A stretch of DNA of 64,000 nucleotides. It comes from Ruminococcus sp. (GTDB lineage: Bacteria > Bacillota > Clostridia > Oscillospirales > Ruminococcaceae). Shown here piece after piece: positions 35,657-42,385 of this stretch. Under the pieces are notes generated by a model. The model made no database searches. It had not been told where the DNA came from and saw only the letters and a list, made by a program, of their open reading frames with translations. The stretch lies in contig NZ_JAFYYT010000008.1 in the NCBI RefSeq assembly GCF_017549005.1, forward strand, positions 1 to 64,000. Reading direction: 5' to 3'. Position 1 is the stretch's first letter. Every line of letters begins with the position of its first letter. Position numbers and translations under genes: made by a program.

Positions 35657-35704
35657 ATAATTTCCTTTCTTACCTAAAAAGTAAATTTATATTTCGGAAC
35701 ATAC

Positions 35705-35733
35705 TTGACATTTCCTATTAGTCATTATACAAT
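35705..35733 (+). promoter_or_regulatory. Promoter of the first cargo gene of the island
   Basis: TTGACA (35705-35710) and TACAAT (35728-35733) are spaced 17 bases apart. The -35 box lies inside an imperfect palindrome GGAACATAC..(..)GACATTTCC (35695-35714), a possible site for the divergent XRE regulator. Confidence 0.75.
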
Positions 35734-35788
35734 GTTATTACAGCAATGTCAACCCATTAGATTATGTTTTGAAAGGCGGTCGATTTGT

Positions 35789-36103
35789 ATGGCTTGGAAT
35801 CCAAAGAAACCAGGGAATTATGCTTGGTTAACCCAAATAGTAAAAGAACACGGAGGTGTTGAACAATTCATCGATGATATCCACAATGAAGGATATCAAA
35901 AAGGACAGGAACATGGAGTACTTATAGGAGCAAGTATCGCAACGATAGCATTTGTGGCGGTTTTGGGAGCTTATCAAGAGATAAGGCACATCGTAGAAGT
36001 ACGAAAAGCGTCTAAGGTGCGTGCAAAAGTATCAAGTGATATTATACGTTGCAATATAAGCAAATCTGACAGTGAAGGCGTTGATACACCAACTCAAAAA
36101 TGA
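35789..36103 (+). CDS. Small single-span membrane protein, copy A (unknown family)
   Basis: The 104-residue protein starts at the ATG at 35789 (MAWNPKKPG) behind AAAGGCGG. Residues 1-50 form a soluble domain with [23 protein letters not shown]. Residues about 52-74 are a membrane span (GVLIGASIATIAFVAVLGAYQ) and the tail is basic. The same architecture and about half the residues recur in the gene at 41274-41612, so the island carries two paralogues flanking its enzyme genes. Function unknown. The N-terminal domain could be a ligand or protein-binding module and the span an effector or anchor. Confidence 0.75.
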   Translation: MAWNPKKPGNYAWLTQIVKEHGGVEQFIDDIHNEGYQKGQEHGVLIGASIATIAFVAVLGAYQEIRHIVEVRKASKVRAKVSSDIIRCNISKSDSEGVDTPTQK

Positions 36104-36129
36104 GTTATTAAATTGTTTAGTGCCTGCAA

Positions 36130-36255
36130 TGTTGCATATTTCTATAAAATGTTGCAGAAATATATGACTTCATACAAAGTGTTGCGCACTCGGTTCTTTT
36201 GTTGCAAAAAAACAACATCAAGCAAAAATGTTGCAACTTATTGTTCCTTGTTGCA
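36130..36255 (+). repeat. Phased array of six TGTTGC(A) direct repeats
   Basis: TGTTGC begins at 36130, 36150, 36180, 36200, 36229 and 36249. Spacings are 20, 30, 20, 29 and 20 bases, so all six lie on the same helix face, as three pairs with a 49-50-base period. Five copies extend to TGTTGCA and one to TGTTGCG. An inverted CGTTGCG lies in the promoter spacer (36281-36287). The array ends 16 bases before the -35 box of the HTH-PIN-ankyrin gene and looks like a multi-site operator. Confidence 0.88.
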
Positions 36256-36270
36256 ATTATGTGATAAATA

Positions 36271-36299
36271 TTGACTTTTACGCAACGGCATGGTATTAT
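36271..36299 (+). promoter_or_regulatory. Promoter of the HTH-PIN-ankyrin gene and likely of the cargo operon
   Basis: TTGACT (36271-36276) and TATTAT (36294-36299) are spaced 17 bases apart. The spacer contains the inverted GCAAC half-site. Confidence 0.78.
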
Positions 36300-36346
36300 A
36301 TGATCAAAGAACACACACCTGCAGATGTACGGAGGAGGAATCAGCT

Positions 36347-37669
36347 ATGACCAAAAAGGAAATGGAGTTTTTAGGCGGCAGAATGAAACAGCTACGTGAG
36401 AAGAACTCTGTAAAAAGTCTTGAAGCTATGAGAGAACTACTGACTGATAGCGGAAATGATGATTATCGTGTTGATAATAAATCGACGCTTTCAAGAGCAG
36501 AGAGCGGTTCCGCAGGAGAAAAGACTATTATTAAGTGGGCAAAAGCTTACTGTAGTGTTTTCGGATATTCTGAAAAACAGACTGAGCAATTCCTTAGAGG
36601 CGATAAAATAGCTGTTCCAGATACATCGGCTCTTCTTAAGAATCCTCAGTTAGTGGACGAACTCGGTGAGGAATACAATATCGTTGTAATCCCAGACACT
36701 GTAATAAGAGAACTGGACGGCATAAAAAATGCTAATGCTGGTGCTCTTGGCAAAAAAGCATGGGAAATCATCAGAGGTATAGGTTACGGTGAAAGAGTAA
36801 TCAAAATGGAGTATGATGGCGATAAATCCATTGAAAAGGACGAGCAGATAATATCGGTTGCAAAAACTGCGGCTGAAAAGTATGGATGTGAGGTACAAAT
36901 CATTACAGACGATGCCGACTATTCTGCTTTTCTAAAAGGTGATGAAACGGTTACAGCTCTACATTTAAGAGAGTACATGATTACTAAGCAAAAACTTGTC
37001 AATATGAAAGGACTTGTAGAGCTTGATAATTATTATGCCGATGATTATTCCAATTTGACAGCTCCTGATGAAGATGAGATAAATGCATTTCTTGCTGACG
37101 GTAATACTCTTATTATTTCAGCGGTAAGAAATCGTTCGCACAGTTTAGCTCAAAGGAAAGCCAAAATCAAATGGTTAACAGATCATGGCGCAGATGTTAA
37201 TAAGAGAGACTGTAAGCACAGATACTTTCCACCGCTGACTCATGCGATACAGATGAATGATTATGAAATGTTTATCTTCCTATTAAACGAATGCCATGCA
37301 GATCCAAATGTCGGCAGCAGAAATCCACACGATGCGGGAAAACTCAGACAAAAGGACATTAAGCGTGAAAAAAACGAAGGTAATATGCCTTTAATGGTCG
37401 CTGCTTGGGATGGCAAGGTCGAATTTGTTAAAGCACTTTGTGCTGATGAACGTACAAGTATCAATCAGCAAGACGCCAATGGTTTTACCGCCTTGATAAA
37501 GGCTTGCTACTGGGGATTCCTGAAATGCAGAGATATTCTGCTTGATGCAGGAGCTGATACAAAAATCGTCGACATTGACGGTTTAACAGCAGAGGATCAT
37601 TATAACGAGTTCCTTGAATGCGGACGAAAAAAGCCAACCAAGCAGAATAAGAAAGGACGTCGATTCTAA
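36347..37669 (+). CDS. HTH-PIN-ankyrin fusion protein (putative self-regulating RNase)
   Basis: The protein has 440 residues from the ATG at 36347, with GGAGGAGG about 10 bases upstream. Residues 7-75 are an XRE-type DNA-binding domain (LGGRMKQLREKN ... KSTLSRAESG). Residues 88-205 are a PIN nuclease domain: Asp 92 in VPDTSALL, Glu 122 in VIRELDG, Asp 165 in KDEQII and Asp 188/189 in IITDDADYSAF supply the acidic centre. Residues about 245-430 are ankyrin-like repeats (GADVNKRD, MPLMVAAWDGKVEFVKAL, TALIKACYWGFLKCRDILLDAGAD). PIN domains cut RNA. The order DNA-binding, RNase, sensor suggests a repressor whose nuclease is released by ligand or protein binding to the repeats. The six-copy TGTTGC array directly upstream is a likely autoregulatory site. 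The stop overlaps the next start (TAATG). Confidence 0.82.
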   Translation: MTKKEMEFLGGRMKQLREKNSVKSLEAMRELLTDSGNDDYRVDNKSTLSRAESGSAGEKTIIKWAKAYCSVFGYSEKQTEQFLRGDKIAVPDTSALLKNPQLVDELGEEYNIVVIPDTVIRELDGIKNANAGALGKKAWEIIRGIGYGERVIKMEYDGDKSIEKDEQIISVAKTAAEKYGCEVQIITDDADYSAFLKGDETVTALHLREYMITKQKLVNMKGLVELDNYYADDYSNLTAPDEDEINAFLADGNTLIISAVRNRSHSLAQRKAKIKWLTDHGADVNKRDCKHRYFPPLTHAIQMNDYEMFIFLLNECHADPNVGSRNPHDAGKLRQKDIKREKNEGNMPLMVAAWDGKVEFVKALCADERTSINQQDANGFTALIKACYWGFLKCRDILLDAGADTKIVDIDGLTAEDHYNEFLECGRKKPTKQNKKGRRF

Positions 37670-41254: not shown

Positions 41255-41273
41255 CTGAAAGGAGAAATGCTCT

Positions 41274-41612
41274 ATGGCGTGGGACGCAAATGAAAAAGGT
41301 AATCCGGCTTGGCTTACAAAACAGGCAAGTGAACACGGTGGAGTTGACAACTTCATTGATGATATTCACAACGAAGGCTATCAGGAAGGTCATGAACGTG
41401 GTATGATTGTTGGCGCTGGTGTAGCAACTGTGGTTATTACTGTTGTGATAGGTGCATATGAAGGCATCAAGTATCTCGTTCAGAAGCACAAAGTTAAGAA
41501 GCAGGTTGTTATAGAACGCTCAGATTCAGCTCAAAATGCTATCAGGCAGATGTGTGAAGATACCGATGATAAGCAGTATGACGATAATGATGTTTCAGAC
41601 CTTGACGATTAA
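41274..41612 (+). CDS. Small single-span membrane protein, copy B
   Basis: The 112-residue protein starts [16 protein letters not shown] and shares [22 protein letters not shown] motifs and a membrane span ([23 protein letters not shown], about residues 43-65) with copy A at 35789-36103. The C-terminal tail differs and is acidic ([15 protein letters not shown]). AAAGGAG precedes the ATG and the gene follows the fusion enzyme by 19 bases. The two copies bracket the enzyme genes. Function unknown. Confidence 0.75.
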
Positions 41613-41629
41613 TAAAGGAGGCTGTTTAT

Positions 41630-41848
41630 ATGACTATTTACACAACGCAGGAGTACAAGGGCTATGGTAAGCAGAACTACTACTGGTACGAATATCGACT
41701 TGAAGGCGATGAAGTGTTCAAGTACAAATGTCACAGACAAAAATTCTTTGACGGACATGAAAACACATGGGAAAGGGATGAAGATGTAGTTAATTCTTGG
41801 AAAACTGATGATCCGGATATGCCTGATTGGCTGCATCAGTATCTGTGA
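41630..41848 (+). CDS. Small Tyr/Trp-rich acidic protein, unknown
   Basis: The 72-residue protein has AAAGGAGG 9 bases before the ATG and lies 17 bases after copy B, so it is very likely translated. It is rich in Tyr, Trp, Asp and Glu ([31 protein letters not shown]) with one Cys and no membrane segment. I do not recognise a family. It could be a small regulator, an immunity-like protein, or a substrate of the radical SAM enzyme; none of these is supported directly. Confidence 0.65.
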
Positions 41849-41893
41849 GTTCCTTATAAGTAACTTGTAAATTATGGACATGGAGGTATGATT

Positions 41894-42160
41894 ATGAGAC
41901 ACGTTTTCAGAGCAACAAAGCTTGGTTGGGACGAGGAACAGGAAGGTATATGGTTTGATTCAGAATACTATACCAAAGAAGAAGCTGAAGAGCAATTCAA
42001 GCCATATCAAGGAATAACTCAAAAAGGCTATCCATATACAGGGTACGAATATGATGGGCAGAAGTATCATGATTATTTCTATCTTGGCGAATATGAGGAT
42101 GATAAAATGCCCAAAAATAATGAAGAGTATATTGATAGTTTGTTTGGGAAAGGTAGATGA
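41894..42160 (+). CDS. Small acidic aromatic protein, unknown
   Basis: The 88-residue protein starts at the ATG at 41894 (MRHVFRATKLGWDEEQEG); GGAGG lies 7 bases upstream, while an ATG six bases earlier is too close to it. It is acidic and Tyr-rich (YPYTGYEYDGQKYHDYFYLGEYEDD), like its upstream neighbour, without Cys or membrane segment. It is the last gene of the cargo block. No family is recognised. Confidence 0.65.
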   Translation: MRHVFRATKLGWDEEQEGIWFDSEYYTKEEAEEQFKPYQGITQKGYPYTGYEYDGQKYHDYFYLGEYEDDKMPKNNEEYIDSLFGKGR

Positions 42161-42254
42161 AAATCAAAAAGGAAGATACAAAATGAGTAAATAAACGCTA
42201 TTATGCAGAATTTGACTAAACTGCATTACGGAACTTGTAAAAACAGTACAACGA

Positions 42255-42288
42255 AAAAGTCCCCCATTCAGCAGAATGTGGGACTTTT
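42255..42288 (+). terminator. Terminator of the island cargo block
   Basis: A stem AAAAGTCCC-CATTC/GAATG-GGGACTTTT (one bulge each side) with loop AGCA, followed by TTTTCT. It is 95 bases past the last cargo stop. Confidence 0.82.
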
Positions 42289-42385
42289 CTGATTCGCTGT
42301 AAATTGCCTTGGGTTCAAACTTCTGTGCTGCGTCCCAACTGAAAAAGGGTTCTTCCTCAAACTCCTTTCCTAAAACTTCCAGCTT

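Follow-up and report, generated by a model that had tools for sequence, protein, structure and literature searches.

A stretch of 64,000 nucleotides from a Ruminococcus sp. contig (NZ_JAFYYT010000008.1, positions 1 to 64,000; hereafter the window) carries a block of genes that combines a PIN RNase-like protein with a radical SAM enzyme and nucleotide enzymes. A serine recombinase, a TnpW-like open reading frame (ORF), and an XRE regulator lie in that order on the minus strand. They are followed on the plus strand by a small protein (TM1), an XRE-PIN-ankyrin protein (PIN-ANK), the radical SAM enzyme, a NERD protein, a fusion of kinase, HAD, and phosphoribosyltransferase (PRTase) domains, a second small protein (TM2), and two further small proteins (s1 and s2). 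A first-pass annotation, made from the sequence alone, had described a one-direction block that opens with TM1 and closes with the second small protein; this block is present, and Pfam confirms the domains that were named. Four of its parts recur together in other genomes, and the set looks like an undescribed anti-phage system. The regulator and the genes of the block are:

34877..35656, minus strand: divergent XRE-family regulator (HTH_3 in Pfam); matches beside other loci are weak
35792..36103, plus strand: small protein TM1, with a hydrophobic stretch, a paralogue of TM2; TM-profile relatives in 5 distinct loci
36347..37669, plus strand: core part 1, XRE-PIN-ankyrin, a probable RNase effector or sensor; the longest ORF opens at 36290
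37669..38508, plus strand: core part 2, radical SAM enzyme with CxxxCxxC and one auxiliary-cluster cysteine set (Pfam, alignment)
38606..39646, plus strand: accessory NERD nuclease-like protein with a hydrophobic C-terminus (Pfam); D...ExK kept in 11 of 11 rows
39653..40708, plus strand: core part 3, nucleoside monophosphate (NMP)-kinase-like domain (residues 1-164) and HAD phosphatase domain (residues 183-352), from profiles and models
40709..41254, plus strand: core part 4, uracil phosphoribosyltransferase (UPRT)-like PRTase domain (residues 353-533), fused here to part 3 (Pfam, models, alignment with upp)
41274..41612, plus strand: small protein TM2, with a hydrophobic stretch (TM-profile search)
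41630..41848, plus strand: accessory small acidic protein s1; relatives confined to loci carrying NERD
41888..42160, plus strand: small acidic protein s2, without relatives among the loci searched

The Pfam E values are 2.6e-12 for PIN_4 (along with several ankyrin models), 1.1e-16 for Radical_SAM, and 6e-15 for NERD; within the fusion protein they are 2.7e-6 for AAA_17 and 2.9e-7 for UPRTase, and the HAD match is weak (0.0036). PIN-ANK probably starts at the ATG at 36347, because GGAGG precedes this codon and because the homologue in locus L015 opens at the same residues. Most junctions in the block are tight, as annotated: the PIN-ANK and radical SAM genes share base 37669, and the gaps are 6 nt from NERD to the fusion gene, 19 nt from there to TM2, and 17 nt from TM2 to the next small protein, but 97 nt separate the radical SAM gene from NERD. 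Similarly, the block is AT-richer than its left flank (G+C of 0.35-0.42 per kb over 35-42 kb, as compared to 0.43-0.52 over 30-35 kb) but not its right one. The contrast is one-sided because the right neighbor is also low in G+C (0.40-0.43 over 42-45 kb).

We scanned GTDB genomes with the radical SAM protein as the seed, which gave 46 loci, and located the other parts by tblastn. (Two of the 46 are duplicates: L011 and L044 are the same places as L005 and L006, with identical matches.) PIN-ANK sequence is present at 45 of the 46, kinase-HAD at 41, and the PRTase at 38; given enough downstream DNA, the fractions are 41/43 for kinase-HAD (at least 1 kb) and 38/39 for the PRTase (at least 1.77 kb). 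The parts co-occur across phyla, nearly always in the same order, and as the same genes adjoin each other in dozens of distant loci, the linkage is more than chance. It is nearly certain from this operon conservation that XRE-PIN-ankyrin, radical SAM, kinase-HAD, and the UPRT-like PRTase form a stable unit. The recurrence of six to eight genes, which had been proposed as a check, is borne out for the four-part core but not for NERD, the TM proteins, and the small proteins, which are optional. We also considered the whole eight-gene block as one unit and rejected it: NERD is found at 8 of the 46 loci (partial at a contig end in L027), and the TM and small proteins at fewer.

PIN-ANK is missing only from L053, a decayed locus with 71 residues of radical SAM left. 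Kinase-HAD is missing from L053, from L019, and at contig ends from L028, L032, and L055, and the PRTase is missing from these five and from L021, L029, and L044, again at contig ends. L024 begins inside PIN-ANK. Some copies are decaying: L019 has a shortened radical SAM gene (10001-10717) and lacks kinase-HAD and PRTase despite 10 kb on both sides, L050 (9913-11910) has lost all but roughly 100 nt of PIN-ANK and the final third of radical SAM, L042 has kinase-HAD in two pieces (10906-12155), and L051 has a shortened PIN-ankyrin gene (8951-10008). The exceptions to the usual layout are L014, with another order of parts, and L045, with 2.2 kb between PIN-ANK and radical SAM. In L052, a PHP-domain gene (10872-11747) separates radical SAM from the kinase gene. 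The junction from PIN-ANK to radical SAM is −8 to +9 nt in 31 of 43 loci, that from radical SAM to the kinase is −4 or −10 in 21 of 40, and that from kinase-HAD to the PRTase, where these are split, is −17 to +13 in 17 of 21; large overlaps may be artefacts of start choice, since the longest frame was used for each gene.

The kinase-HAD-PRTase protein is rare. It is found in 4 of 297 genomes of the family (the window's own included), in 1 of 398 of the phylum (its own only), and, by profile, in 3 of 391 of the class. With kinase-HAD as the seed, all three matches in the 391 class genomes (the window among them) carry the whole set. PIN-ANK (profile, E ≤ 1e-40) is found in three of the 297 family genomes (the window's, G056, and G213), always as part of an operon copy, and the PRTase (profile, E ≤ 1e-20) is found in the operon copies of the window's genome and G213 and as a remnant at a contig start in G035. 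So at these thresholds, contig ends excepted, none of PIN-ANK, kinase-HAD-PRTase, or the PRTase is found alone in the 297 family genomes. Among individual loci, L005 has PIN-ANK, radical SAM, kinase-HAD-PRTase, and TM, without NERD; L006 has PIN-ANK, radical SAM, and kinase-HAD at a contig end; and L007 has a partial kinase-HAD-PRTase at a contig start.

Viral contigs carry the unit as well. Four scans of 2.9 million contigs (by the database description), each with a single component, all gave the same five contigs, in which PIN-ANK, radical SAM, kinase-HAD, and PRTase follow in order, with NERD afterwards in four of the five. The PIN-ANK scan added two contigs: one breaks off within the gene, and the other has ankyrin-type genes only. 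These scans required short exact peptide patterns and hence miss distant relatives: one contig was found with a radical SAM alignment of three rows and five with wider alignments, and a scan with the single kinase-HAD-PRTase protein confirmed no relative. Searches of plasmid and phage records with the window protein or the Vibrio protein gave no relatives, nor did a search of E. coli DNA with the Vibrio operon.

The hosts span five bacterial phyla and one archaeal metagenome-assembled genome (MAG). A radical SAM tree (44 rows, quick method) contains 27 rows from Bacillota, 6 from Pseudomonadota, 3 each from Spirochaetota and Fibrobacterota, 1 each from Kiritimatiellota and Thermoplasmatota, and 3 with no phylum given; many of the hosts are MAGs, where contigs can be misbinned. 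Strain-level hosts include Ruminococcus albus, Vibrio, Enterovibrio, Neptuniibacter, Brachyspira, and Anaerobiospirillum. As Anaerobiospirillum sits among the Bacillota rows, the Pseudomonadota require two placements, which is compatible with transfer. TM1, TM2, NERD, and s1 are accessories to the core. A protein of about 70 residues, similar by eye between loci, follows NERD in L009 (13693-13905), L020 (13857-14072), L026 (13969-14184), L056 (11373-11585), and L059 (6155-6370).

PIN-ANK appears to be a PIN RNase: the active-site acids D111, D184, and D208 are invariant and E141 is kept in at least 90% of 30 aligned rows, all 30 of which match PIN_4 and Ank. It does not belong to type II VapBC, as the PIN domain lies within a 440-residue XRE-PIN-ankyrin protein and the adjoining gene encodes a radical SAM enzyme. 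By sequence comparison, PIN-ANK has been replaced at some loci by a distant version (31-35% identity to the window's) while its neighbors were kept (68-85%). L010 has 31% identity to the window for PIN-ANK, 85% for radical SAM, 84% for NERD, and 72% for kinase-HAD-PRTase; the corresponding values are 34, 73, 75, and 68% for L013 and 35, 76, 80, and 72% for L014, and L019 has 33% for PIN-ANK and 85% for radical SAM. The trees agree with this: that of radical SAM groups the window with L010, L011, and L019 (SH-aLRT 99), and that of PIN-ANK groups L010, L013, and L019 (99) apart from the window and L011. Two different PIN-ANK genes stand in tandem before radical SAM in L052 (6886-9992) and in the phage contig L057 (4677-7180).

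The radical SAM protein belongs to PF04055, and in 34 aligned rows C13 and C17 of its CxxxCxxC motif are invariant and C20 is kept in at least 90%. The auxiliary-cluster cysteines C217, C224, and C241 are invariant and C272 is kept in at least 90% of the same rows, as in SPASM/twitch enzymes. Because SPASM is not among the Pfam families listed at E ≤ 1, the protein is probably twitch-like rather than full SPASM. By profile and structure, it is closest to the SPASM/twitch enzymes anSME, CteB, and ChlB, but it is shorter (279 residues), has one auxiliary cysteine set, and has no recognized precursor-peptide gene. It is not a viperin (59.2 bits, as compared to the NCBIfam cut-off of 180), and it differs from prokaryotic viperins (pVip) in its auxiliary-cluster cysteines, its module of UPRT, HAD, and kinase parts, and its PIN partner.

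In the kinase-HAD protein, the HAD motifs DxDxT, Lys, and GDxxxD (D192, D194, T196, K294, G312, D313, and D317) are invariant across 39 rows, of which 25, the window's included, match a Pfam HAD model at 0.01 or better. The kinase part has the P-loop and the fold of an NMP (adenylate) kinase. Structure models resemble an archaeal adenylate kinase (an NMP kinase) for the kinase, phosphoserine phosphatase for HAD, and UPRT for the PRTase. (In a viral structure library, three matches reached E ≤ 0.001, and their TM-scores were low.) Pfam UPRTase is found in 19 of 19 PRTase rows, and the loop for phosphoribosyl pyrophosphate (PRPP) and the C-terminal base-binding motif align with the genome's own upp (9 rows, some of which have another residue in place of the second Asp of the C-terminal motif). 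The PRTase part thus shares with upp the UPRT fold, the PRPP loop, a RAG-like motif, and the C-terminal motif. It differs in being fused to (as in the window) or encoded with (as separate genes, often, elsewhere) an NMP kinase and a HAD phosphatase, and the genome has a separate upp of its own. From the models, the UPRT-like, NMP-kinase-like, and HAD parts point to small-molecule (pyrimidine) nucleotide chemistry over RNA end healing.

The core lies on a mobile island. The further features of the island are:

32226..32235, no strand: left 10-bp junction repeat TGAAAAAGGG, identical to the 10 bp at 42340-42349
32281..33936, minus strand: large serine recombinase (Resolvase, Recombinase, Zn ribbon, and DUF4368 in Pfam)
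34037..34450, minus strand: ORF ending in a TnpW-like transposon-encoded protein (PF14202, E = 6.8e-6)
42340..42349, no strand: right 10-bp junction repeat TGAAAAAGGG, found by comparison with intact repeat copies

The island is integrated in a dispersed repeat of about 300 bp, whose halves are window positions 32156-32235 on the left and 42340-42565 on the right. This repeat is imperfectly palindromic, with 72% self-complementarity across 321 columns. Seven further copies (L094-L100) were taken from the same genome, and in six of them the flank matches overlap by exactly 10 bp (TGAAAAAGGG); in the seventh, L098, the halves are in unchanged order and about 60 nt further apart. As the same 10 bp stand at both junctions, the island spans about 32236-42349 (10.1 kb), and its cargo besides the recombinase and the TnpW-like ORF is the gene block. 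Of 40 genomes of the genus (own genome included), 37 match the left flank and 29 the right flank, counts that take in all parts of each query and not just the repeat. The 10-bp repeat is not among the 20 families listed, of at least 60, in a repeat search of the window.

We inspected the flanks of 18 loci by eye and tested 29 chosen locus proteins and the TnpW-like ORF against family models. Defense genes near the core include DrmB and DrmC of DISARM (L052), HmaB and HmaC with a tyrosine integrase (L036), McrC with an AAA gene (L022), and TIR (L005). L010 has HATPase and helicase genes, and L048 has an element with VapE and a tyrosine integrase. Phage genes include a holin (L026), an endolysin (L009), and a terminase with a sub-threshold portal match (L060). 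The matches to a DdmD-like protein (partial, L020) and a generic helicase (L049) are weak. There is no Pfam match for the neighbors L020:4274, L036:12765, and L026:2994, and no PADLOC match for L022:16957 and L010:2569.

Full-text literature searches, with preprints and most subscription papers outside their scope, gave no paper recognizable as a description of this gene set, in line with the first-pass annotation, and we regard the novelty as provisional on that account. No core protein as a whole matches any system model in PADLOC-DB 2.0.0; the partial matches are to pVip (1.4e-15, radical SAM residues 7-161), to PRTase_III-A (4.4e-4), and, over the ankyrins, to PDC-M72A (1.5e-13) and Ankyrin (1.5e-5). 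In CBASS, Thoeris, and Kongming, an enzyme module controls an effector via a nucleotide, as we propose here, but no common synthase or effector is recognized and the signal here is hypothetical. HAD phosphatases reportedly act in immunity as the CARF-HAD effectors of type III CRISPR; these have a CARF sensor and a CRISPR signal, and neither is seen in this operon. A PRTase is part of the protective DprA-PRTase system of P2-like phages, which has DprA as the partner and, in the accessible part of that article, no PIN, radical SAM, kinase, or HAD component (PMC9122126). A PIN RNase is required for phage protection by DS-3 and DS-5 of DefensePredictor, which consist of one or two proteins and, in the accessible part of the report, include no radical SAM or nucleotide enzyme; the same part describes systems with PIN or HAD proteins and without the other core parts (PMC13092281).

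The explanation that we favor, tentatively and at a little under even confidence, is that the core is a mobile anti-parasite operon, most likely anti-phage, in which a nucleotide and radical SAM module gates the PIN RNase. That the operon acts in defense is likely. The operon is carried by the recombinase island here and by prophages elsewhere, and known defense genes adjoin some loci. Three observations weigh on the other side: an integrase or recombinase is found in just 8 of the 46 stretches (with a small query set), the neighbors in L042 are housekeeping-like, and the tally of defense neighbors is drawn from chosen loci without a control for background density. Gating by a metabolite is possible, at less than even confidence. 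The UPRT-like PRTase, the NMP-kinase-like part, and the HAD part would process a uracil-type nucleotide, which the radical SAM enzyme (acting on it or on a protein) would turn into an unusual product, and the level of this product would hold or release the ankyrin-joined PIN RNase. Infection would disturb nucleotide pools or enzymes, so that the RNase cuts RNA and growth or phage production stops. The XRE domain might give DNA binding or autoregulation, and NERD, s1, and the TM proteins might be optional second effectors or membrane anchors. The simplest link between the modules, given that PIN-ANK is exchangeable, would be a small ligand that they share. A more specific proposal, which we consider doubtful, is that the operon's own uracil-salvage module and the radical SAM enzyme make a new modified pyrimidine nucleotide that controls the RNase, with PIN-ankyrin being swapped to follow new triggers. 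If the favored explanation is correct, then the operon is an immune system of broad distribution whose enzyme classes, in the literature searched and to our knowledge, are not known to cooperate in defense; a new small molecule or modification would await discovery, and base salvage and radical SAM chemistry would be linked to RNase-mediated immunity. The four-part unit is defined, it occurs naturally both fused and split, and the ends of the 10-kb mobile island that carries it here are mapped; all of this can be tested in laboratory strains.

Other explanations for the same genes differ in what the enzymes act on. The radical SAM enzyme could modify PIN-ankyrin itself (or a small protein), with the nucleotide enzymes sensing infection and no diffusible metabolite. 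The nearest solved relatives of the enzyme are peptide and protein modifiers, and its gene is within −8 to +9 nt of PIN-ANK at 31 of 43 loci. This seems unlikely all the same, because PIN-ANK can be exchanged for a 31%-identical version with radical SAM still at 85%, so that both versions would have to share any modified site, and because no universal small substrate gene is seen. Alternatively, PIN could cut RNA that the kinase-HAD-PRTase and radical SAM proteins then repair or modify. A kinase and a HAD domain are also found in end-healing enzymes, and polynucleotide kinase phosphatase (PNKP) joins a P-loop kinase and a HAD domain on a single chain. Here, though, the folds most similar to the two domains are those of archaeal adenylate kinase and phosphoserine phosphatase, and a UPRT-like PRTase is added. 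A relation to PNKP is still conceivable, although it is not among the 50 matches listed in one structural search or among those listed in another. Also, Pfam recognizes no ligase in the core, and the products of PIN cleavage are not known to require end healing. We consider RNA-level restriction or repair highly improbable, and end healing by kinase-HAD was set aside on the fold and profile evidence. The first-pass proposal of a guarded RNase with a nucleotide or RNA-end processing arm is partly supported, with the nucleotide arm favored over the RNA-end one.

It is also conceivable, if rather improbable, that the operon is an addiction module, similar to a toxin-antitoxin pair, that keeps islands and prophages in place, with the enzymes as a chemical antitoxin. 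This would account for a PIN protein with an XRE domain on mobile elements, and for the lack of PIN-ANK without the enzymes in the 297 family genomes and in the viral contigs (save the one that ends inside the gene and the ankyrin-only one). But the operon is more than a two-gene pair, three to four enzymes would be a costly antitoxin, and the toxicity is putative. Less probable again is a metabolic or stress operon, for a nucleoside natural product or a cofactor, with a regulatory RNase and no relation to phages. There is a precedent in the accessible part of a report on the deazapurine nucleoside tubercidin, whose cluster unites PRTase, radical SAM, and kinase genes (tubE, tubB, and tubH; PMC6112128). 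A role of this kind fits poorly with the rare and patchy distribution (4/297 family, 1/398 phylum, and 3/391 class genomes) and with carriage by phages and an island, in some loci adjoining DISARM, Hma, or McrC genes.

Two minor observations concern other genes. An ADP-ribosylglycohydrolase gene lies 20 nt after the PRTase gene in L030 (12388-13329). Outside the island, window positions 45860-48583 encode a 907-residue protein with many short Gly/Ser/Leu motif repeats, in a GC-rich stretch.

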